DNA from: an uncultured Pelagibacteraceae bacterium
GTDB taxonomy: Bacteria; Pseudomonadota; Alphaproteobacteria; Pelagibacterales; Pelagibacteraceae
DNA length: 42,312 nucleotides
Assembly (NCBI GenBank): GCA_902515185.1
Contig: CABXTN010000009.1
Coordinates: 1-42,312, forward strand
Direction of reading: 5' to 3'
This document shows, piece by piece, positions 4,373 through 15,349 of this stretch (the first letter of the stretch is position 1; each line of letters opens with the position of its first letter). Under the pieces are notes generated by a model, which was not told the origin of the DNA, did not search any database, and saw nothing but the letters and a program-made list of their open reading frames with translations. The position numbers were made by a program, and so were the translations under genes.

Positions 4373-5638
4373 CTAACTTTTTTTTGACTCAATTAAATTC
4401 ATTGCGCACAATAATAGCATTGAATGTATAGGTAAAAAATATCTGTCCGATGCGGTCATAGCTTGCCAATATTGTATTTGAATATTAAAAGGCGAACCTT
4501 CAGACATAATCATTATAGTGATCATAATTAACGTGTAACTAATTATTGACATATAGCAAAGCAACATATTTTTCTCTAAAAGTGCATTTTCAATAATTAA
4601 TTTACTGCCATCATTATATTTTATATATTTAGAAAAAATAAAAACAAAAATTATTAACGAAATTATCATTTGTTTGTTAATCATAATTTTACCTATTAGA
4701 TATAAAATAAATTTAAAATTAATTATATTTTCAAAAAATCTTTGACCACCACTCATCATTTTCTGTGCAGATGATATCTCAATACCACCCCCGGCTGCCC
4801 CAGTATTTTTGGCATACAAAAGCCAAATTAAAATTGGCATATAACTAAAAATAAAAATTAATAATAATTTTTTACTTAAAATTTTATTTTCTTTAAAATA
4901 AATAATTAAAAAAGAGAAGAATATACAAAATATTAATGCAAGACCTTCCATTTTAAATAGAGTTAAAAAACAAAAATGAAATAAAATTAATATTAAATCT
5001 GTATAAAAATTTTTATATTTTGGATTTTTACTTGTGATTTCAGATAAAAGCTTAATTAAAGATATTGAATATAGACTTAATAGAACGTCAACTTCACCAT
5101 TAATTATTCTTTTTTCATAAACAAATAAAATTAAAACTATAAAAATAAACAAGCTGGATTTTTTATTCAAATTTTGTGTTAAAAGTATAATTGGTGGAAT
5201 AGTAAGAATAAGATGTGAAAATTTAGGCAAAACTTCATTCCAAGTGCCTATTAATTTTGCCATTGTTGCAGATAGAACAGGCAGAAATATAGGATAATCT
5301 GGATGGCTGTAATATGGGCTATATGAAAAAAAATTGTTAAGGCTATCCTCAAAAAAAATAATTTTTGCATTGAACAACCATATAGATCTACCGTCCCAAT
5401 CCGATACAGGACTTGAAAGACTAATTAAACATAGAGCTAAAAGTATTAAAATTAATAGTTTATTTTTATTATAATTTTTAAGTAAAATTAACACAAAATT
5501 AATAATTATAAAAAAACCAAAAAAAACAAAAAAAGTTTTTTCTTTAATTAAAAAAAAGGTTAAATAATTTATAAATACAAGTGAAAAAAAAATATTAACT
5601 AAAAATTTATTTGAAAATTTATTTGCAATTAAAAACAT
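4373..5638 (-). CDS. GT-C-like polytopic membrane glycosyltransferase (putative)
   Basis: This 421-residue membrane protein has about ten hydrophobic segments. After the first helices it shows SDWDGRSIW (79-87) and HPDYPIFLP (112-120). An acidic residue in the first large outer loop and an HPDYP-type motif are what I expect in GT-C superfamily transferases related to ArnT/PMT, which take sugars from polyprenyl-phosphate donors on the outer side of the inner membrane. Donor lipids could come from the DPM1-like enzymes nearby. Its start overlaps by 20 nt the 3' end of a gene for a small single-pass protein. The family call rests on topology and two motifs, so it could instead be another polytopic envelope protein. 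Confidence 0.65.
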   Translation of the reverse strand: MFLIANKFSNKFLVNIFFSLVFINYLTFFLIKEKTFFVFFGFFIIINFVLILLKNYNKNKLLILILLALCLISLSSPVSDWDGRSIWLFNAKIIFFEDSLNNFFSYSPYYSHPDYPIFLPVLSATMAKLIGTWNEVLPKFSHLILTIPPIILLTQNLNKKSSLFIFIVLILFVYEKRIINGEVDVLLSLYSISLIKLLSEITSKNPKYKNFYTDLILILFHFCFLTLFKMEGLALIFCIFFSFLIIYFKENKILSKKLLLIFIFSYMPILIWLLYAKNTGAAGGGIEISSAQKMMSGGQRFFENIINFKFILYLIGKIMINKQMIISLIIFVFIFSKYIKYNDGSKLIIENALLEKNMLLCYMSIISYTLIMITIMIMSEGSPFNIQIQYWQAMTASDRYFLPIHSMLLLCAMNLIESKKS

Positions 5639-6032
5639 AAATATTTTCTTCCTGGTCTATTTTTTTACATTTTGAATATAAAGACTTATTAGATGTAAAG
5701 ATAATTTTACTTTTTTCATTTAATTTAGATGGATAAGAAGCCTCTACAACTCTCTGAAACATTTTTGTATGTATTTTTGCTTGATTATATTTAGATTTGT
5801 ATAATTCATTCGATAAATTGAATTCTGAAATTCTATTTTTATTTATAAGTGAAATTATTGTATAAATTTTTTTATTTTTAATACCTTGTTCAAGGCCAGT
5901 TGATTCTTTGGTAAAATTAAAGAGGTTATTTATAGAAAAGGTGCTTCTATGAGCAATCAAAATTAACTCAAGTATAATTATTACAACAAACAAATAATAC
6001 AAAAGTTTATATGGAACATTTTTATTTTTCAT
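5619..6032 (-). CDS. Small single-pass membrane protein of unknown function upstream of a GT-C-like gene
   Basis: I do not recognise a family. The 137-residue protein has a basic N terminus, one hydrophobic helix at about 9-28, and then about 108 mostly polar residues that would lie in the periplasm. Two cysteines near the C terminus (CKKID and FNCK) could form a disulfide there. There is no signal-peptidase site that I trust, so a membrane anchor is more likely. The gene overlaps the GT-C-like gene by 20 nt, which implies translational coupling and hints at an accessory or partner protein. It lies 12 nt downstream of a GT2 gene. The gene is probably real because of the tight packing and a normal start. 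Confidence 0.6.
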   Translation of the reverse strand: MKNKNVPYKLLYYLFVVIIILELILIAHRSTFSINNLFNFTKESTGLEQGIKNKKIYTIISLINKNRISEFNLSNELYKSKYNQAKIHTKMFQRVVEASYPSKLNEKSKIIFTSNKSLYSKCKKIDQEENIYVFNCK

Positions 6033-6044
6033 TAATTTAAATAT

Positions 6045-6962
6045 TTAATTTATTTTATTTTGAAATGTTTTTTTTATATCTTTAATTAAATATCCTAATA
6101 ACCCCATAAAAAATAGTAAAACACCCAATAGTAATAATGCAACCCCAAGAATGAGTGATTGAATATATCCATCCCCATTTCCTGTGGTATAAAAATATAT
6201 AAATCTAAAAATAGCTAAGTTACCAACTATAAATGGCAATGCTGCTAAAGTTGAAAAAAAATGAAGAGGTTTGTAAAGTAAAAATGCTTTACAGATAATT
6301 AGCATTTGTTTAACTACAAATTCTGTAACAGACTTAAATAACCTTGAATTTCTTGTTGGGGGATTTGTTTCTATAGAAACTTCATTAATCAATAAATTTT
6401 TTTCTTTAGCTTGGATTAATGTTTCTAAGGTGTATGTATAATAAGAATTGATCTGTAAATTATTAATTGCATTTTTACTATAAGCTCGAAATCCACTCGA
6501 TGCATCAGAAATTTTTTGTCCCGAAATTATTCTTACCACTCTGGATCCTAATTTTTGTAAAAATATTTTTGACTTAGAGAAATGGCCAATTCTATCAAAG
6601 TCCCTAACACCAACTACAATATCAGAATTAGAATGATTTAAATTATCTATAAGCTTTGGAATAAATTCTGACTTATATTGATTATCCGCATCAGTATGAA
6701 TTAGAATGTCAGCTTGTTCATTTTTTGCATAAATTCTACCTTGATCAAATGCATATCCAAGACCCATATTTCTTTTAAAAGAAATAATTTTATCTACATT
6801 ATTTTCTTCAGCAACTTTTATTGTATTATCTGTAGATCCATCATTTATTATAACAATTTTATAATTGTATTTATTAGGGTCTACTGACTTTCTGATTTCT
6901 GAAATAACCTTCTTTAGTTGATGCTCTTCATTGAAACAAGGTATTTGAATTATTATTTTCAT
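6045..6962 (-). CDS. Family 2 glycosyltransferase with C-terminal membrane helices (DPM1/GtrB-like)
   Basis: This 305-residue protein is a polyprenyl-phosphate glycosyltransferase of the DPM1/GtrB type, moving a sugar from an NDP donor to undecaprenyl phosphate. IPCFNEEHQL (7-16), INDGSTDNT (39-47), RNMGLGYAFDQG (64-75) and DAD (91-93) in HTDADNQY are clear GT2 motifs, as is SDASSGFRAYS in the second half. Two long hydrophobic segments near the C terminus (about 240-262 and 270-293) are the usual membrane anchor of this subtype. Its start overlaps the end of the AsnB-type gene by 4 nt (ATGA). A lipid-phosphate sugar made here could be the donor for the GT-C-like protein encoded two genes downstream; that link is inferred. 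Confidence 0.9.
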   Translation of the reverse strand: MKIIIQIPCFNEEHQLKKVISEIRKSVDPNKYNYKIVIINDGSTDNTIKVAEENNVDKIISFKRNMGLGYAFDQGRIYAKNEQADILIHTDADNQYKSEFIPKLIDNLNHSNSDIVVGVRDFDRIGHFSKSKIFLQKLGSRVVRIISGQKISDASSGFRAYSKNAINNLQINSYYTYTLETLIQAKEKNLLINEVSIETNPPTRNSRLFKSVTEFVVKQMLIICKAFLLYKPLHFFSTLAALPFIVGNLAIFRFIYFYTTGNGDGYIQSLILGVALLLLGVLLFFMGLLGYLIKDIKKTFQNKIN

Positions 6963-8875
6963 AAATTTTTCTCCAAATGATTATTCTCTAACCATTGACT
7001 TAAACAAATCAAATTGAAAATTTTAAAACTTTCATCAAATTCCTTATTTTGATGGCTCTTCCAAATTTTATTGATTTTGTCTTTATTGAAGATTTTAAGC
7101 ATATTTTTTGTATAGAGTAATTTTAATGCCATTTGTTTAACTTTTTCATTTTCAATCAACCATATTCCTATTGGCGAATTAAAACCACTTTTTTTTTTCT
7201 TAAAAAAACTCTCAGGCAATTTTTCTTTTACAGTTTCTTTTAATATTTTTTTTTTATTAAATAAATTCAATTTAAAATTTACTGGAAATGAAGAAGCATA
7301 TTCAACAATTTTACTATCTAAAAATGGCACCCTTGCTTCTTGTGAGTTGTACATTGTTGACCTATCTATCTTATATAAAACATTATTGGGTAACCAAGTT
7401 TTAATATCAATGAACATAAATCTATCTAGATATTTTAAGTTTGAAACAAGGTCATTTTCTTTTTTGAAATAATCAAAAAAATCATAGTTCATATTATTAA
7501 CTAAATTTTTATTTATAAGATCTTTTTTTTCTTCAAGAGTAAAAATTTCACGCCATAATACATGTGCAAATAAATCGTTATGTTGTAAAGAATTTAAAAA
7601 TTTATTTAAGCGATATTTCAATCCAATTTTTTCATTTGATGAATTTTTTAAAAATTTTAATAGAAATTTAAAATAGACGAAATATTTAAAAATTTTCTTA
7701 GGTAAATATCTTTTTAAAAAATCTGCTTGATAGGTTGTATATCCTCCAAATATTTCATCTGCACCATCCCCAGATAAAACCATTTTAGAACTTTTAGATG
7801 AATATTTAGATAAATAATAAGTTGCTATAAAAGATGTATCTGACATAGGTTGATCCATAGCCTCAATAATCTTAGGGAAATCCTCAACTAAATTATCTGA
7901 CACAGGAACAGAATATTTTTTTAAATCTATGTCCAAATGTTTCGCTACAAACTTAGCATCTTCATATTCATCAAAACTTTTTTCTTTAAATGATAAATTG
8001 TGTGCTGTCATTTTGTGATTATCTATATTCTTTAATTGTAATGAAATTATACTTGAGTCAATACCACCTGATAAAAAAGTTCCATTGGTTACATCAGAAA
8101 CCATTCTATTTTTGGTAGCATTTTTAATTAATTGATCTAAATTTTTGGTAGAAATATTATAATTATCTTTTGATTTATTTTTGAAATAATTCTCTAAAAA
8201 CCAATACTTTTGTGTTTTAAAAGTTTGATAATTTTTCTGATTAATTAATAAATAGTTAGCTGGCTCTAAAGAATAAACATTTTTAAAAAAAGTTTTATCA
8301 GCAATTAAATAATTTAAAGATAGATAGGTATTTAAACTTGAATAATCAATTTTTAAATCTTTTTTTATATCATCTACTTTGAGAAATGATTTTATTTCAG
8401 ATGAAAAAATCAAACCATATTTTTTTGAGTATGTGTAAAAAAGTGGTTTTTCTCCAAATTTATCTCGTGCTATAAACAAATGCTTTTCTTTGTTATCCCA
8501 AATTGCAAATGCAAACATTCCTTCAAATTTTTTTAAACAATCTACACCCCAATGATTATATGATTTCAAAACTACCTCAGTATCACCATTTGTGTTAAAT
8601 TTATAACCAATGTTTTTAAGTTCGTTTTTAATTTGTTTAAAATTATAAATTTCACCATTGAAAATTAAAATATTTTCACTTTTTTCATCCAACATTGGTT
8701 GTTTGGAATTTTCTAAATCCAATATAGATAATCTTTTATGACCAAAGCTTACAAAGCTATTGCCAAAATAACCCTCATCGTCAGGACCTCTGTGATGGAG
8801 AGTTTCATTCATAATTTTGACTACGTCATTGTCTGGTTGGTTTGTAAAATTACAAATACCTACTATTCCACACAT
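6959..8875 (-). CDS. asnB: Asparagine synthase (glutamine-hydrolysing) family amidotransferase
   Basis: The 638-residue protein is a class II glutamine amidotransferase fused to an ATP-pyrophosphatase domain. Cys2 after Met1 is the glutaminase nucleophile. HHRGPDDEG (27-35), FNGEIYN (72-78) and GDTE (97-100) bind glutamine. SGGIDSS (269-275) is the PP-loop that adenylates the substrate, and SGDGADEIFGGY lies further on. The family makes asparagine from aspartate, but copies of this length inside polysaccharide clusters often amidate a sugar acid or other carboxylate instead. Here it begins a chain of glycosyltransferase genes, so sugar-acid amidation is a fair alternative. The gap to the upstream hydratase-like gene is 31 nt. 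Confidence 0.88.
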   Translation of the reverse strand: MCGIVGICNFTNQPDNDVVKIMNETLHHRGPDDEGYFGNSFVSFGHKRLSILDLENSKQPMLDEKSENILIFNGEIYNFKQIKNELKNIGYKFNTNGDTEVVLKSYNHWGVDCLKKFEGMFAFAIWDNKEKHLFIARDKFGEKPLFYTYSKKYGLIFSSEIKSFLKVDDIKKDLKIDYSSLNTYLSLNYLIADKTFFKNVYSLEPANYLLINQKNYQTFKTQKYWFLENYFKNKSKDNYNISTKNLDQLIKNATKNRMVSDVTNGTFLSGGIDSSIISLQLKNIDNHKMTAHNLSFKEKSFDEYEDAKFVAKHLDIDLKKYSVPVSDNLVEDFPKIIEAMDQPMSDTSFIATYYLSKYSSKSSKMVLSGDGADEIFGGYTTYQADFLKRYLPKKIFKYFVYFKFLLKFLKNSSNEKIGLKYRLNKFLNSLQHNDLFAHVLWREIFTLEEKKDLINKNLVNNMNYDFFDYFKKENDLVSNLKYLDRFMFIDIKTWLPNNVLYKIDRSTMYNSQEARVPFLDSKIVEYASSFPVNFKLNLFNKKKILKETVKEKLPESFFKKKKSGFNSPIGIWLIENEKVKQMALKLLYTKNMLKIFNKDKINKIWKSHQNKEFDESFKIFNLICLSQWLENNHLEKNL

Positions 8876-8906
8876 AAATTAAATCCTATAAGTGAAAAAA
8901 TTTGCA

Positions 8907-9686
8907 TTAACGAATTGAAGTTTTAACTGTACCTAGTTTATCTATTTTGCCAGTATATATACCCCGATTAAGAATGGGAACCACTCCAACTGTTGAGCCA
9001 GTAAATACAAAAAAATTTTTTTTTATATTAATTTTATCCTTCCTTATTTTATTTAAAACAAATTTTAAAGAATTTAAAGGATTTACAAACACTGTGTTTG
9101 TATTACCATAAAAGATCTGATTGTTTTTTTTATTTTTTATATAAGTTTTTAAATTACCAATATTAATTTTTTTAAACTTTATTTTTTTGCCAATAATAAA
9201 TTTAATATTGGCTCCAAAATCACTACATAAATCACCAAATGACTTTATACCTTTTTTCTTTTGTCTATAGCCCACAACCTCTATACATGGAGCCATATGT
9301 GTTATAAATCTCGAAACGTTATTTCCAGTAATTTTTTTTTTAAAATTAAAAAAATTTTTTTTAATTAAATAACAAACCTCAAGCTCAATTCCTAAAGTTG
9401 ATTTGTTTATTTTTACAGATTTTCCATTTTTTAAAAAATTTCTTTTATAAACAGAAGCATAAAACGGCTCTTTTTCCTTAAGCTTCTTCATTACAATTAA
9501 ACTTGTACCACCTGCTTTAAAACCAATTATAGGTTCTTTAATTTTACTTTCACATAATTTTCTAAGTTTATCAGCCTCGATTAGTTTTTTTGTATATCTT
9601 ATGGGTATAGGGGAAATAATTTTATTTTTTAAAAAAGCCCTAACTAAATTGTTGCTTATTTTTTCTATGATTTTTTTATTCATCAA
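8907..9686 (-). CDS. 2-keto-4-pentenoate hydratase/fumarylacetoacetate hydrolase-fold protein
   Basis: This 259-residue protein has the hydratase-decarboxylase fold of MhpD-like enzymes, which hydrate 2-hydroxypenta-2,4-dienoate or related enols with a divalent metal. GFKAGGTS (55-62) matches the conserved G(x)K.G.TS turn. GIELEV (99-104) gives the Glu-x-Glu metal ligands (E101, E103), and APCIEVVGYR (132-141) gives the third acidic ligand, E135. The length is the family's usual 250-265. No partner genes of aromatic meta-cleavage are in view, so the natural substrate is probably another keto acid. The gene overlaps the M23 peptidase gene by 4 nt. It is strongly Lys-rich, like the polysaccharide genes that follow it. 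Confidence 0.8.
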   Translation of the reverse strand: MMNKKIIEKISNNLVRAFLKNKIISPIPIRYTKKLIEADKLRKLCESKIKEPIIGFKAGGTSLIVMKKLKEKEPFYASVYKRNFLKNGKSVKINKSTLGIELEVCYLIKKNFFNFKKKITGNNVSRFITHMAPCIEVVGYRQKKKGIKSFGDLCSDFGANIKFIIGKKIKFKKINIGNLKTYIKNKKNNQIFYGNTNTVFVNPLNSLKFVLNKIRKDKINIKKNFFVFTGSTVGVVPILNRGIYTGKIDKLGTVKTSIR

Positions 9687-10489
9687 TTAATTTTTAAAAC
9701 ACTTGCAGGATCTAATCTAACATCAAACCAATTAAGCCTTATATCTAAATGTGGACCAGTCGATCTTCCACTAGAGCCAATGGTACCAATTATATCACCT
9801 TGTTTGACTATGTCATCTTTTTCAACAAATATTTCATCCATGTGCATATACAATGTGGATATTCCGTGTCCATGGTCAAATATTAATGTAGCTCCTGTAA
9901 AATATAAATCCTTCTCCGCTAGGGTTACCGTTCCACTAGCCATAGCTTTTATAGGAGTCCCAAGATCTCCAGCAAAATCAATTCCATAGTGTGGCCAACG
10001 TGGTTTACCATTTAAAATCCTTTGACTTCCATAAACACCAGTTATTATTGCATTATCTAGTGGTAAAATGAATTTTTCTTTAAAAAAGGCTAAACTACTA
10101 TTAATAGATCTTGCTTTACCTATTAATTTATTTTCATTTTTAATTCTTTCGTAAACTTCTTCAGGAGGAGTAACTTTTTTTTTGGGCAATCCATCTATTC
10201 TTTGAATTTTATATTCTCTTTTTAAAACCTTTTTTATTATTTTTTGATTTTGACCATTAAAATATTTAATTATTGTTACATCATTTTTTCTATCTCTGCC
10301 CAAACCAAATGCAAAGTAGCCTTCATTTGAAACATTTACTTCTTTATTATCTATAACAATATTTGAGCCAGGTTCTGTTTTACCCAAAATAAAATGACCT
10401 TGAATAAACTTTCCTTTAAATTCAATGGCTGAAGCTTTTGTAAAAAAAAATAAAATAACTATTAGGATCTTAATTATCTTGCTGTCCAT
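9683..10489 (-). CDS. M23 family metallopeptidase (LytM-like), exported
   Basis: This 268-residue murein endopeptidase-like protein has a signal peptide (1-21, hydrophobic core ILIVILFFF, Ala-x-Ala end). A beta-rich domain (about 22-100) precedes the C-terminal M23 domain (about 140-268). HYGID (167-171) provides the His-x3-Asp zinc ligands and YMH (214-216) the conserved His before the last strand. The final motif, usually HxH, is HLD (247-249), so Asp replaces one His. Related alphaproteobacterial peptidases, as I recall, also carry GPHLD, so activity is possible. It would act on peptidoglycan crosslinks in the periplasm or regulate another hydrolase. It overlaps its SDR neighbour by 16 nt and the hydratase gene by 4 nt. 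Confidence 0.88.
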   Translation of the reverse strand: MDSKIIKILIVILFFFTKASAIEFKGKFIQGHFILGKTEPGSNIVIDNKEVNVSNEGYFAFGLGRDRKNDVTIIKYFNGQNQKIIKKVLKREYKIQRIDGLPKKKVTPPEEVYERIKNENKLIGKARSINSSLAFFKEKFILPLDNAIITGVYGSQRILNGKPRWPHYGIDFAGDLGTPIKAMASGTVTLAEKDLYFTGATLIFDHGHGISTLYMHMDEIFVEKDDIVKQGDIIGTIGSSGRSTGPHLDIRLNWFDVRLDPASVLKIN

Positions 10490-11241
10490 CCACCATCAAC
10501 CAATAAAGATGTACCATTAATCATTGAAGCAGCGTCCGAGGCCAAAAATACTGCAGCACTTGCAACATCAGAAAGTTCTGCGAATCTTCCTAGCGGTATA
10601 TTACCTAGTACTTCCTTTTTAAACTTTTTACTTTTTAGAAACACTTTTGTCATTGGTGTAATTACAAAAGTAGGACAAACTGTATTTACCCTTATATTGT
10701 ATTTTGCTAAATCTATAGACATACCTTTAGTAAGGCCTTCTAATCCAAATTTTGTCATATTATATACACTTCTTATTGGACCCCCAACATGTCCCATTTG
10801 TGAAGACATATTTATAATTGAGCCTCCAACTTTTTTTCTACTTTTAAGTTTAATCATTTTTAAAGTACATAGTTGAGCAAGATTAAATGCAGCTATTGTA
10901 TTTACTTTTACTAGATACTCCATATTTTTTGTTTTAACTTTGGTAAAATGTTCTGGAATGTTGTTTCCTGCGTTATTAACTAATATATCTATTCTTGGTT
11001 GTTTATTAATGATATTTTTAAGATCCTTATAATTTGTTATATCACATACAAAAGATTTACATTTAACTTTAAATTTTTTGATTTTTTTTGAAACTTCATT
11101 AAGATCTTTTTGAGTTCTACTTATAATAATTAAATTGCACCCAGCTTCAGCAAAAGCTATGGCACATGCTCTTCCCAGTCCTTTGCCAGCTCCAGATACA
11201 AGGGCAATTTTATTTTTTAAATTATATTTTTTTAAGTACAT
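10474..11241 (-). CDS. Short-chain dehydrogenase/reductase (SDR)
   Basis: This classical SDR of 255 residues oxidises an alcohol or reduces a ketone with NAD(P). GAGKGLG (17-23) is the cofactor loop and NNAG (89-92) the structural motif. Ser147, Tyr160 and Lys164 form the catalytic set (SVYNMTK). The C-terminal DAASMINGTSLLVDGGW is the usual end of 3-oxoacyl-ACP reductase or gluconate 5-dehydrogenase-like members. Ser-Arg at 41-42, at the end of beta-2, hints at NADP(H) rather than NAD(H). The gene lies 1 nt from terC and overlaps the M23 gene by 16 nt. The substrate is unknown; the neighbouring GMC oxidoreductase suggests oxidation of an alcohol or sugar-like compound. Confidence 0.88.
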   Translation of the reverse strand: MYLKKYNLKNKIALVSGAGKGLGRACAIAFAEAGCNLIIISRTQKDLNEVSKKIKKFKVKCKSFVCDITNYKDLKNIINKQPRIDILVNNAGNNIPEHFTKVKTKNMEYLVKVNTIAAFNLAQLCTLKMIKLKSRKKVGGSIINMSSQMGHVGGPIRSVYNMTKFGLEGLTKGMSIDLAKYNIRVNTVCPTFVITPMTKVFLKSKKFKKEVLGNIPLGRFAELSDVASAAVFLASDAASMINGTSLLVDGGWTAR

Positions 11242-11242
11242 T

Positions 11243-11821
11243 CTATATCAATATCTTTAAATCAGTATAAATCAAATCAATAGCAACAGCTAGTATTGCA
11301 AAAAGACCTAACCAGCTAATCCATTTATATTTTTTAATTAAATTAGAAATTAGTGTTGCCGCCGTTGCCATTAAGATTATTGACAAAACAAGTCCAAATA
11401 CTAATAAAAAATAATGGTCTTTGGCTGCGCCTGCTACACCAAGAACATTATCAAGACTCATTGTAAAATCCGCAATTAATATAGTCCAAATCGCCTTTAA
11501 AAAAGATGATTTATCTACATCAATTTTTTCATTTTCATTTATTTTATTTTTGATTACATCAGTATAAAGTTTATAAATAATATAAAGTAAGGCGAGACCT
11601 CCAATAAGCCTTAATCCTTTTATTTGTAATAAGTAAGCTGTTGCAAGAGTTAACAATATTCTAAGTACTACAGCTAAACTTATTCCCCAAAAAATAATTT
11701 TTTTTCTTTTATCTGATGGAAACTGGGAAGCAACCATACCGATAATAATTGCGTTATCTCCAGCTAAAACTAAATCAATAAAAATTATTTGAATAAAGAT
11801 TGTTATTTCTTCTGGTGACAT
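11243..11821 (-). CDS. TerC/YjbE-family integral membrane protein
   Basis: This 192-residue membrane protein belongs to the TerC family. Members are linked to metal efflux (manganese, calcium) and to metal loading of exported proteins. DLVLAGDNA (16-24) and DFTMSLDNV (118-126) are the paired acidic motifs within helices that mark the family; the conserved Asp residues would bind the metal. About six or seven helices are visible. The start codon shares one base with the stop codon of the GMC oxidoreductase (TGATG), so the two are translationally coupled. The short form without CBS domains is the YjbE type. The role in this operon is not clear; metal supply to periplasmic enzymes is one guess. 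Confidence 0.88.
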   Translation of the reverse strand: MSPEEITIFIQIIFIDLVLAGDNAIIIGMVASQFPSDKRKKIIFWGISLAVVLRILLTLATAYLLQIKGLRLIGGLALLYIIYKLYTDVIKNKINENEKIDVDKSSFLKAIWTILIADFTMSLDNVLGVAGAAKDHYFLLVFGLVLSIILMATAATLISNLIKKYKWISWLGLFAILAVAIDLIYTDLKILI

Positions 11822-13416
11822 CAGTTCTTCAATATCATATCAGAACCCTTTTCAGCAATCATAATAGCGGGTGCATTTGTATTACCAGAAGTAATATTTG
11901 GCATAATTGATGCATCAATAACTCTTAAATTTTTAATACCATGAACTTTAAGCTGATCAGAAACTACGGATTCACTATCATTTCCCATTTTACAAGTTCC
12001 GACAGGGTGAAAAATAGTTTGAGTAAAATTACTTCCTATTTTCACAAGCTCCTCGTCATTTTGAACATGAATACCAGGTCTGAACTCTTCGGGTTCAAAT
12101 TTTTTAAATTCCTTTGTTTCTAAAACAATTTTCCTTATTAATTTAAGCCCATCTGCTGCAACTTTTCTATCTTCATCAGTTGAAAGGTAGTTCATTTTAA
12201 TTTTTGGTTTATCTCTACTATCTGAACTAATAATATTTATTTCACCACGGCTTGTAGGCCGTATGTTTGCGACAGTAGGCGTGAACGCCTCAAAGTCGTG
12301 TAATTTGGAGCCACCCAACTTATCTGTACTTATAGGTTGCACATGGAATTGAAGATTAGGAGTAGTTTTTGTTGGATCGCTTTTTGCAAATCCACATAAT
12401 TGGCTTGCGCCCATAGTCATTGGTCCTTTACGTAAAAAAACATACTCTAAACCAATTAAAAATTTTCCAAATACACTATTAATTTTTTTATTTAACGTTT
12501 TAACATTTTTAACTTTGTATACAGGTCTAAACATTAAATGGTCTTGTAGATTTTTCCCCACTCCTTTAAGCTCAAATATTGTTTTAATACCTAAATTATC
12601 TAGTTTTTTTTTATCGCCTATGCCAGAAGTTTGAAGTATTTGTGGACTTCCTATTGAACCAGCACTTAAAATAATTTCTCTATTAACCTTAACAGTAAAG
12701 CTATTATTTCCTTTCCAATAATTTACACTTACAGCTTTATTATTTTCGAAATTAATTTTTTGTACATGACTATTAGTTTCTATTTTTAATTTTTTATCTT
12801 TTTTAATTGGATTAAGGTATCCAACCGCAGTACTACATCTTAACCCATTTTTTTCAGTAACTTGAAAATAACCACATCCAAAATTATCTCCTTTGTTAAA
12901 ATCATTTGTTTTTGGAATTCCAATTTCTTCTGCAGCATTCATAAAGCTATCTAAAATATCTAATTTAATCCTTTGGTCTGATACTGACAGGGGACCATTA
13001 ATTCCATGAAACTTACTTTCACCTCTTTCTTGATTTTCTGATTTAATAAAATAGGGCAACACATCACTCCAGCTCCATCCTTTATTTCCTAATTGTCTCC
13101 AAAGATTATAATCTTCTTCTTGACCACGTATATATAGAAGACCATTAATTGACGAGCTTCCACCCAAAGTTTTACCCCTTGGATAGGGTATTGATCGATT
13201 CTCCATAGTTTTATCGGGCTCAGTGTTATAACACCAATCAGTTTTAGGATTATGCATTGTTTTATAATATCCAACAGGAATATGAATCCATGGATAACTA
13301 TCATTTCCTCCTGCTTCTAAAAGAAGTATTTTATATTTATTTTTGCTAACCAATCTATTAGCAAGCACACATCCTGCGGACCCAGCTCCAATGATTATAT
13401 AATCAAATTCTTCCAT
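11821..13416 (-). CDS. GMC family FAD-dependent oxidoreductase (choline dehydrogenase-like)
   Basis: This 531-residue flavoprotein belongs to the glucose-methanol-choline family and oxidises a primary alcohol with FAD. GAGSAG (10-15) binds the ADP part. GKTLGGSSSINGLLYIRG (81-98) is GMC signature 1 and GSIGSPQILQTSGIG is signature 2. HPVGTCKMG near the C terminus supplies the catalytic His (about 470), and GNTNAP supplies the partner Asn (about 514). It resembles BetA and long-chain or polyethylene-glycol alcohol dehydrogenases; there is no betB beside it, so choline is not assured. It is the first gene of the minus-strand run and faces a plus-strand operon across 90 bp, so its promoter should lie at 13417-13506. 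Confidence 0.92.
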   Translation of the reverse strand: MEEFDYIIIGAGSAGCVLANRLVSKNKYKILLLEAGGNDSYPWIHIPVGYYKTMHNPKTDWCYNTEPDKTMENRSIPYPRGKTLGGSSSINGLLYIRGQEEDYNLWRQLGNKGWSWSDVLPYFIKSENQERGESKFHGINGPLSVSDQRIKLDILDSFMNAAEEIGIPKTNDFNKGDNFGCGYFQVTEKNGLRCSTAVGYLNPIKKDKKLKIETNSHVQKINFENNKAVSVNYWKGNNSFTVKVNREIILSAGSIGSPQILQTSGIGDKKKLDNLGIKTIFELKGVGKNLQDHLMFRPVYKVKNVKTLNKKINSVFGKFLIGLEYVFLRKGPMTMGASQLCGFAKSDPTKTTPNLQFHVQPISTDKLGGSKLHDFEAFTPTVANIRPTSRGEINIISSDSRDKPKIKMNYLSTDEDRKVAADGLKLIRKIVLETKEFKKFEPEEFRPGIHVQNDEELVKIGSNFTQTIFHPVGTCKMGNDSESVVSDQLKVHGIKNLRVIDASIMPNITSGNTNAPAIMIAEKGSDMILKN

Positions 13417-13471
13417 TTTAATTATGATTTAATATAAATACCTTATTTTTAAACATATTCTTATTTTTTTA

Positions 13472-13500
13472 TTAAAAAATTTGAAATAGTAACTTATAAT
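13472..13500 (+). promoter_or_regulatory. Putative sigma-70 promoter giving a leaderless transcript
   Basis: A perfect TATAAT lies at 13495-13500, with TTAAAA (4 of 6 to TTGACA) at 13472-13477 and a 17-nt spacer. The predicted transcription start falls at or next to the ATG at 13507. There is no Shine-Dalgarno sequence before that ATG. In DNA this AT-rich, matches to the -10 box are common by chance. Confidence 0.35.
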
Positions 13501-13506
13501 ATAAAC

Positions 13507-13764
13507 ATGAGTAACAATCTAAAAAAAATAATAATTTTTTTGTTTATAGGGATATTTACAACATTAATTATAATTAAATACTCAATGTCTATGATTAAAA
13601 ATGAAATTATAGATATTTTGAAATCTCCTAAATTTGACTCTTTTATTGTGGCTATTTTTGACCAGAAATTACAACAATTGGCTGATAAAGATTTATCTGA
13701 AGAAAAGAAAATTTTTTATAGAAATAACTTTAAAAAAATAATTCAAAAATTTGAAGCTGACTAA
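13507..13764 (+). CDS. Small single-pass membrane protein of unknown function
   Basis: I do not recognise a family. The 85-residue protein has a basic N terminus, one hydrophobic helix at about 8-26, and then an amphipathic, charged tail of about 60 residues (DQKLQQLADKDLSEEKK and so on) that looks helical and may form a coiled coil. Its 3' end overlaps by 14 nt the start of a GT-C-like gene, so the two are probably translated together. It is the first gene after a divergent promoter region. The arrangement copies that at 5619-6032, another single-pass protein overlapping a GT-C-like gene, though the soluble parts do not look alike. It could be an accessory subunit or scaffold for the membrane enzyme. 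Confidence 0.6.
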   Translation: MSNNLKKIIIFLFIGIFTTLIIIKYSMSMIKNEIIDILKSPKFDSFIVAIFDQKLQQLADKDLSEEKKIFYRNNFKKIIQKFEAD

Positions 13765-15349
13765 TTTTATAAATAATCTTCTTAAAAAAGATAGTTCTTT
13801 ATTTGCGTCAATCTTATTGTTCGCAATTTATTCAATTTGCGTATCAAATTTTCAAGCTATGCATGTTTACGATGGATACCATTGGGGATTAATGGGGTCT
13901 GCTGTTAGTGATTTCCTTAACAATAAATTAGCTTACAAAGAGTCCTTTGTACACTATGGAATTTTGACAACAATATTACATTCTTTTTTTTATAAGTTTT
14001 CAAACAGTGTATTTTCAATTTTTTTATTCACATCAATTCTTTATGTCGCCTCAATTTCAATATTAACACTATTGGTCAAAAAATTCACAAATAATAATTA
14101 TTGTTTTTTATTTTTATATTTAATGTTTTTTTTCCAGCCATTTACAATTTTTCCATGGCATACTTATATTATTTTCTTCTTTTTATCTTTGGGACTATAT
14201 ATTTATTTGAAAAAAAATTATTTATCGTACTTTTTTTTTGGACTAATTCTCCAATTGACTTATTTAGCAAGTGATAGTTTTAAATTCTGCTCTTACCTAA
14301 TAATTATCACAACAATTTTTTTTATTTATTTTGAAAATAAAAAAAAGCTATTATTTGCAAAGTATACAATATTTTTAATTTTTGGTTATTTTTTACCACT
14401 AGTCATATTTTTAATTAGTTTGCTATATAATGAAAGCTTTGATGCCTGGTCCAAGCAAAATATTGCTAATATAATATTAACAAATTCTGGAAAAACACTA
14501 TTAATATTTATTTATGAATTTTTAATAAATTTATTTCAAAATTTTTATAATAAACCAAATTATATAATCTATTTACTTTTAAATTTATCTTGCGTTCTAT
14601 ACATTTTTTTATTTACATTTAAAAAATATCAAAACAAGGATATCTTATTTATTTCTATAATAACAATTTTTTTAAATTATTTACTTATATCAAAATTTTT
14701 ATCTTATCGAATTTTTAGCAGTGTAATTATAGGAATTATCACTTTATCTTTTGTACTCTATAAAAGTAAAAAAAATTATTTTAAACAATTTGTTATACTG
14801 TTTATAATAATATTATCTCCATTCTCAAATCCTTTTGAAAAAGGAGAAGCAAATAAAAATTATTTATACAAATCTGTTGCAGAAAACAGTTATAGTAATT
14901 CATCTTCAAAACACTTTAAACATATGAGGTTTGATAATGAAGTTTGGAAACATTTTGAAGAAACTTATTTAATTATCAATTTAATCAAAGATAATTGTAA
15001 GAATATTTACAAATTTTATAATCTAACAAGTGATCATTATTATTATATGATACTAAATGATTATTTTAAGGCAGGTCATATTGTACCTGGATATGGAGAA
15101 TTTAGATTACAAAAAAGTTATAATGCATTTTTTAAAGTAATAGATGGTAGGTTTTACACGAATCTAAGTAACGATATAAAAGCAGAAAATACTATTTTTT
15201 TAAGAGGAAATTTTGACGAGAATAAACTCTCAATCATGAATAAAAAAATAAACATAAAAAATTACTCTTTTAAAAATCTGCCATACACATATGTAAATCA
15301 CTCAAAACGAGTATATATACCCAATAAATGTGCCGAAAAAATATTTTAA
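13751..15349 (+). CDS. Polytopic membrane protein, GT-C glycosyltransferase-like
   Basis: This 532-residue protein has about ten to twelve membrane segments and then a soluble C-terminal part (about 375-532). After helix 1 it shows YDGYHWGLMG (40-49) and YKESFVHYGIL (62-72). The Asp and His in the first outer loop, followed by a Y.E.F..YG motif, are features I associate with GT-C-like transferases using lipid-linked sugars. The only usable start after the upstream in-frame stop is the TTG at 13751, which lies inside the preceding gene and suggests coupling. The C-terminal part, rich in Tyr and Asn, may bind the acceptor. The function is inferred; another polytopic polymerase or ligase is possible. 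Confidence 0.6.
   Translation: MKLTNFINNLLKKDSSLFASILLFAIYSICVSNFQAMHVYDGYHWGLMGSAVSDFLNNKLAYKESFVHYGILTTILHSFFYKFSNSVFSIFLFTSILYVASISILTLLVKKFTNNNYCFLFLYLMFFFQPFTIFPWHTYIIFFFLSLGLYIYLKKNYLSYFFFGLILQLTYLASDSFKFCSYLIIITTIFFIYFENKKKLLFAKYTIFLIFGYFLPLVIFLISLLYNESFDAWSKQNIANIILTNSGKTLLIFIYEFLINLFQNFYNKPNYIIYLLLNLSCVLYIFLFTFKKYQNKDILFISIITIFLNYLLISKFLSYRIFSSVIIGIITLSFVLYKSKKNYFKQFVILFIIILSPFSNPFEKGEANKNYLYKSVAENSYSNSSSKHFKHMRFDNEVWKHFEETYLIINLIKDNCKNIYKFYNLTSDHYYYMILNDYFKAGHIVPGYGEFRLQKSYNAFFKVIDGRFYTNLSNDIKAENTIFLRGNFDENKLSIMNKKINIKNYSFKNLPYTYVNHSKRVYIPNKCAEKIF

Follow-up and report, generated by a model that had tools for sequence, protein, structure and literature searches.

The stretch analysed here (the window) is a contig of 42,312 nucleotides (nt) from an uncultured Pelagibacteraceae bacterium, most likely a member of SAR11 (GenBank assembly GCA_902515185.1, contig CABXTN010000009.1), one complete contig (C9) of a genome in 45 contigs, and it carries two separate gene pairs in which a small gene encoding a single-pass membrane protein overlaps the start of a gene encoding a large polytopic one. 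In pair A, on the minus strand, the small A gene (5619..6032) encodes a protein of 137 amino acids (aa) with one N-terminal helix followed by about 105 soluble residues, and overlaps by 20 nt the gene for large A (4373..5638; 421 aa). In pair B, on the plus strand, small B (13507..13764; 85 aa) has one N-terminal helix and a charged, probably helical tail without cysteine, and its gene overlaps by 14 nt that for large B (13751..15349; 532 aa), which begins with TTG; the nearest relative, L045, shares both this start codon and the length of the overlap (L numbers denote loci throughout). Large A and large B are predicted membrane glycosyltransferases of the GT-C fold, the latter with a C-terminal soluble domain. 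These four open reading frames (ORFs), their coordinates and their overlaps are as claimed in an earlier reading of the sequence (the original prediction), and the outer-loop motifs described there are present: SDWDG (containing D82) and HPDYP in large A, YDGYHWG (D41, H44) and Y62.E.F66..Y69G70 in large B.

Searches with the four window proteins found nothing convincing in Pfam, NCBIfam or PHROGs. A hydropathy scan detected a single helix in seven of nine small-A proteins and in all 14 small-B proteins tested, the two small-A misses (L006 and L010) both aligning with the other sequences at the hydrophobic N-terminus. The small proteins had been said not to look alike, and they are indeed unrelated (hhalign probability 1.8), so that kinship between small A and small B was rejected. 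The possibility that small A corresponds to a C-terminal domain fragment split off from large B, or from the large-C proteins described below, was also rejected, profile similarity being absent.

Profiles of both large families gave nothing useful against the sequences of solved structures, and structure prediction was therefore needed. AlphaFold models were built from alignments of 11 (large A) and 21 (large B) sequences, with L064, L016 and repeated loci excluded from the latter. The large A model has a predicted local distance difference test score (pLDDT) of 83.3 and a predicted template modelling score (pTM) of 0.88. Its best VIA match is ArnT (Z 20.8 over 311 aligned residues, 3.9 Å), followed by AglB, AftA and Pmt4; the first 30 structure rows are all GT-C proteins (Z at least 9.2), and below them come FtsW (6.5) and unrelated proteins (no higher than 5.4). 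Foldseek by itself is weak for large A, the best match being AglB at E 0.037. The large B model (pLDDT 83.9, pTM 0.85) gives nine Foldseek matches at E 0.001 or lower, all of them oligosaccharyltransferases or translocon structures containing one, and VIA matches that include Pmt4 (Z 19.7) and ArnT (Z 17.4 over 443 residues). The GT-C-like character originally proposed for the large proteins thus holds up, both matching GT-C structures well above unrelated rows, and a GT-C fold is well supported for the two models. The ArnT match of large A stops at ArnT residue 366 and the protein ends shortly past its last helix, indicating that it is without the C-terminal periplasmic domain; the match of large B reaches residue 575.

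Judged by position, the acidic residue of the first outer loop that is typical of GT-C enzymes is present in both proteins, as D82 in large A and D41 in large B, each following a helix in the model. Invariant residues in the large A family are D82 (in 11 rows), R84, K92, Y115, P116 and E135, and D41, H44, F66, Y69 and G70 are invariant in 21 homologues of large B. Both large proteins would, we presume, be enzymatically active. Neither reaches the cut-off of the Pfam PMT_2 model (PF13231), and only one of ten scanned large-B homologues, L050, passes it (39.6 against a cut-off of 26.1).

Within the order, a single-sequence search detected large A in 9 of 297 genomes and a profile search in 11 of 397, the genome of the window being included in each count; it was not found in the 298 other genomes of a phylum sample. 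At every judgeable Pelagibacterales locus a small-A homologue lies just upstream of large A (10/10 with the window, 9/9 among relatives; L074, a further locus, is truncated by the end of its contig and was left uncounted). The small A proteins are only 22–46% identical to that of the window, yet besides M1 they share six invariant residues: F32, R94, Y100, P101, C122 and C136. Pair A is kept whilst its neighbours differ among loci.

Of 297 genomes of the order searched, 8 gave a large B, and a motif-based scan of 84,980 species genomes located it at 21 loci. With repeats removed (L018, for example, repeats the L017 locus), small B is present at all 17 Pelagibacterales large-B loci, the window included (16/16 others), and its relatives of small B are 23–68% identical to the window protein. 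Profile searches, each in 197 genomes, gave three strong hits for small A and six for small B, all beside the enzyme gene; all are members of the profiles themselves, and the result thus excludes only strong orphan hits in this sample. Weak hits of the small profiles (L027–L035 and L039–L044) look like chance. Scans of viral contigs revealed no relative of large A or large B. Since homologous small genes recur beside homologues of the large ones, the pairs are not a matter of chance.

Purifying selection on the small frames had been named in the original prediction as a test of the idea, and small B is under purifying selection: the ratio of nonsynonymous to synonymous substitution rates (dN/dS) is 0.09–0.24 in eight pairs of close loci, these pairs being drawn from eight loci with six of the pairs among the same four. 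The values for small B are below those of the enzyme in five pairs and slightly above in three. The ratio was printed only where the small proteins were more than 60% identical, which leaves no A pair. This work and the comparison of protein distances drew on nine of the ten A pairs and 13 of the 17 B pairs, with L009 left out of the mirror test (only the last part of its small-A gene is visible), as were the B pairs L016, L055, L056 and L063, in which the large genes are cut or broken. Distances between small proteins follow those between their large partners, with r = 0.83 for pair A (n = 9) and r = 0.91 for pair B (n = 13); in each case none of 5000 permutations gave a value as high.

Pair B lies between the same two neighbouring genes, labelled by their look as encoding a GMC-type oxidoreductase and a TRAP dctP-like protein, in the window and in L045. 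In two other relatives these flanking genes are 131 base pairs (bp) (G697) and 148 bp (G695) apart, with neither pair gene between them. With two loci that have the pair and two that do not, the two genes thus occur here either together or not at all. The boundary of the insertion was sought in the two pair-less relatives, where the intergenic alignment was no better than the best of 200 shuffles, the DNA being too diverged. Eight neighbouring genes are 73–96% identical between L045 and the window, as against 52% for large B and 68% for small B, from which it follows that the enzyme changes quickly and its partner less so. At L017/L063 and at L055 large B is split into two frames with small B intact, and the enzyme gene looks broken. 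Directly before the ATG of small B, a stretch containing TATAAT (13485–13506) is nearly identical in L045; were it to act as a –10 box, the mRNA would have hardly any leader. Scanning the surroundings of pair B for promoters gave a number of sites no higher than chance (23 against a shuffle mean of 21.4).

Further pairs of small and GT-C-like genes came to light in the pair-A neighbourhoods of other genomes and in a search with PMT_2. A profile built from five of these small proteins (small C) aligns with the small-B profile over 84 columns (hhalign probability 57; E 1e-4 for a single comparison), and small B probably belongs to a wider family of small proteins encoded beside GT-C-like genes. 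The small-C profile gave 25 hits in 23 of 187 genomes, the genome of the window among them; three of the hits (L142, L144 and L145) had been used to build the profile and 22 are independent of it. All 25 accompany a GT-C-like gene, and all 25 large partners match a large-C profile, some members just passing PMT_2 (L136, L140) and others not (L137, L141, L182, L183, L186). The arrangement varies: small C is directly upstream of the large gene at six loci (the start of that at L143 is uncertain), directly downstream on the same strand at nine, and convergent with it at eight, where the two genes overlap by 4 nt in seven cases and are 1 nt apart in the eighth (L186). At the remaining two, L187 and L182, one gene and two genes, respectively, lie between small C and the GT-C-like gene. 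L182 (2148–5433) is on contig C12 of the window's own genome, where two methyltransferase-like genes, so labelled by their look, separate small C from the gene for a 528-aa GT-C-like protein about 1.4 kilobases away. Ten of the 25 small genes follow a gene labelled, again by its look, as glutaredoxin-like; these were considered as counter-examples and rejected once wider flanks were read, eight being convergent with a GT-C-like gene and the other two lying near one.

A longer form may also belong here. A weak hit of the small-B profile at L026 (E 0.0015) is a 163-aa protein with a small-B-type tail behind a long N-terminal part, its gene overlapping by 4 nt that of a 488-aa polytopic protein; a 156-aa look-alike sits 7 nt from the gene of a 486-aa polytopic protein. 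These 488-aa and 486-aa proteins have no Pfam match, and calling them GT-C proteins is a guess from their look. At L196 (6058–9974) the two membrane proteins of 156–163 aa, one of them with the small-B-like tail after a long N-terminal part, each beside a polytopic protein of about 487 aa that lacks a Pfam match, are possibly a further type of pair. The original prediction saw the same design arising twice; both pairs are real, and the statement was if anything too modest, small B being probably one of a family that occurs in three gene orders.

We propose, with a probability of roughly two in three, that each pair in the window comprises a GT-C glycosyltransferase and a dedicated single-pass accessory subunit, working in the manner of PIG-X/Pbn1 with PIG-M/Gpi14. 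The data show association and conservation; in the scheme that follows, the binding of the two chains, their topology, the donor, the acceptor and the way in which the small protein acts are inferred. The small and large chains would appear together in the membrane, made from overlapping or abutting genes, and the helix of the small protein would pack against the GT-C bundle, placing its soluble part on the periplasmic face of the enzyme, where it might steady the enzyme or help to hold the acceptor, in the way that PIG-X/Pbn1 serves PIG-M/Gpi14. The enzyme would take a sugar from a polyprenyl phosphate at the periplasmic side of the inner membrane and transfer it to a glycan or lipid of the cell surface. 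The periplasmic domain missing from large A may be provided in trans by small A and its invariant cysteine pair, and small B would be one member of a wider SAR11 subunit family serving several types of GT-C enzyme. Convergent pairs exist, and co-transcription therefore cannot explain their pairing; that the genes pair in as many as three orders points to proteins that function together, over an accident of operon order. The more general claim, that SAR11 bacteria have two or more families of single-pass GT-C subunits unrelated to each other, and that small B/C, with its long-form relative, is a general module used across several GT-C subfamilies in at least three gene orders, strikes us as evenly poised between true and false.

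The closest known parallel is glycosylphosphatidylinositol (GPI) mannosyltransferase I, in which a GT-C enzyme (PIG-M/Gpi14) is bound to a dedicated single-pass protein (PIG-X/Pbn1); the single helix of Pbn1 packs against Gpi14, and its luminal part docks on the enzyme (PMC12653191). Large B matches a chain of this enzyme (9wno_A) at Z 14.0. Pbn1 differs in being eukaryotic and in having a large luminal domain and a C-terminal helix, whereas the small proteins here are of 85–138 aa with an N-terminal helix. Searched against PDB sequences, the small-A and small-B/C profiles gave no hit to Pbn1, the best matches being unrelated proteins at E 0.14 and 0.039.

Other systems resemble the pairs in part. 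The predicted fold of both large proteins is that of the ArnT/PMT_2 glycosyltransferases (Z 20.8 and 17.4, as above), from which they differ in that neither matches a Pfam or NCBIfam model, and we know of no single-pass partner of ArnT. FtsW and RodA are polytopic bacterial glycosyltransferases governed by the single-pass partners FtsI, FtsL and FtsB. They act in peptidoglycan synthesis, and the FtsWIQLB structure 8p1u is only a weak match (Z 6.5 against large A). Multi-component transmembrane glycosylation systems combine a glycosyltransferase family 2 (GT2) sugar-lipid synthase, a GtrA-type flippase and a GT-C enzyme (PMC8035078). The pairing of a membrane-linked GT2 with a GT-C enzyme is shared with the window, where a GT2 gene lies directly upstream of pair A, whilst the small protein of such systems is a GtrA-type flippase of three to four helices or the three-helix GacJ (PMC8035078). 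Small A and small B of the window have one predicted helix each and no Pfam match, and a GtrA-type flippase does not fit them because of this difference in helix number.

A number of observations weigh against the accessory-subunit proposal. Small B is found at none of the six large-B loci outside Pelagibacterales (a Burkholderiaceae metagenome-assembled genome, two Polynucleobacter, a Deltaproteobacterium, a Bradyrhizobium and an unplaced bacterium); the small profiles found nothing there, and no such gene stands before the large one. None of the 30 core PMT_2 loci of the order (the 30 best matches) has a homologue of any small family; unrelated ORFs of 61–71 aa end upstream at four of them and none matches a small profile. 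Other PMT_2 matches lie at a further 21 loci, of which four carry a homologue of small C (L123, L136, L137 and L138) and 17 do not. Even within family C, the eight judgeable genes at PMT_2 loci divide equally, those without small C being L119, two in L120, and L121 (L125, cut at a contig start, was uncounted). That so many GT-C genes are partnerless means that the chemistry does not need the small protein, whose role may lie elsewhere. The eight convergent pairs, moreover, cannot share a transcript; charge around the helix, clear for some small-A proteins, is ambiguous for small B and leaves its topology unsettled; the mirror-tree correlations are without a species-tree control; and the large partners of the wider family are called GT-C-like from their sequences. 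Among the hits examined, a small gene goes with a large one, but beyond families A and B a large gene need not have a small one. The suggestion that these transferases may need a small partner is supported in so far as the pairing is conserved in families A and B within Pelagibacterales (10/10 and 17/17), and does not extend to the core PMT_2 genes and most other PMT_2 genes.

The same evidence bears on other explanations. The small protein might act in the same pathway as the GT-C enzyme without being bound to it, by moving a lipid-linked sugar or scaffolding glycan enzymes, with the two genes gained and lost together. The pairs are often located among glycan genes, and pair B behaves as a cassette that is gained or lost whole, which would link any two genes of a pathway; many GT-C genes are partnerless; and other genes intervene between small and large at L187 and L182. 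We nevertheless think this account unlikely, as small and large stay adjacent whilst other neighbours change, members of the small-B/C family lie next to GT-C-like genes in three different orders, one of them convergent, and one helix would seem little from which to make a flippase of its own.

Less probable still is that the small proteins are chaperones, inserting or stabilising GT-C proteins in the membrane and taking no part in catalysis. The existence of two unrelated small families, each with its own enzyme family, is less to be expected of a general chaperone, even if such a role would suit dedicated pairing with enzymes of diverging sequence and would suit the comparison of L057 with L059, where small B is 82% identical and large B only 54%, as if the small protein had kept a general function. 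It is very hard to credit that the small frames serve only as leaders for translational coupling, or arose by chance and have no function as protein: their shortness and, in many cases, their overlap with the gene that follows would suit this, but conservation is at the protein level in both families (the identities and six invariant residues given above), the dN/dS values of small B are low, and relatives of small B are also found downstream of, or convergent with, the large gene.

To our knowledge, bacterial GT-C enzymes have mostly been treated as single-chain proteins. The combination of a GT-C enzyme with a single-pass accessory protein is a known arrangement, whilst the small families here, at least two, are new. 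No publication was found joining SAR11, GT-C and glycosyltransferase, or joining Pelagibacterales, small protein, glycosyltransferase and transmembrane, and no case of an accessory subunit of a bacterial GT-C enzyme appeared among the matches listed; most of the subscription literature lies outside the coverage of these searches. If the more general claim of subunit families in SAR11 is true, these subunits would be a bacterial counterpart of PIG-X/Pbn1, and many periplasmic sugar transferases in the streamlined SAR11 cells would be two-subunit enzymes. A dedicated small subunit kept even in small SAR11 genomes would give a name to two unannotated protein families and could explain failed expression of such enzymes alone, and the generality of the PIG-M/PIG-X kind of partnership would become directly testable. 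GT-C enzymes build surface glycans, and the surface sugars of SAR11 are likely phage targets.

The genes around pair A fit a lipid-linked sugar pathway, if only circumstantially. Just upstream of small A on the minus strand is a GT2 gene (6045..6962), matching PF00535 at 5.3e-23 and resembling polyprenyl-phosphate sugar synthases; its matches to the AglJ (1.2e-22) and PpgS (4.4e-19) models are both far below the cut-offs, and it is possible that its product makes the lipid-linked donor. Such a GT2 gene adjoins pair A at six of the nine loci that could be read on both sides (the window, L076, L078, L079, L081 and L083), and at L080 the neighbour is a VTT-domain protein. Elsewhere, at L124 (1251–2933), an ArnT-like gene has upstream of it a gene for a 91-aa two-helix protein, which we take to resemble the lipid A biosynthesis N-terminal domain proteins and which would be a different sort of small neighbour. 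Between the two pairs of the window, a 259-aa ORF with no Pfam match over the cut-off (8907–9686) adjoins the gene for an M23 peptidase.

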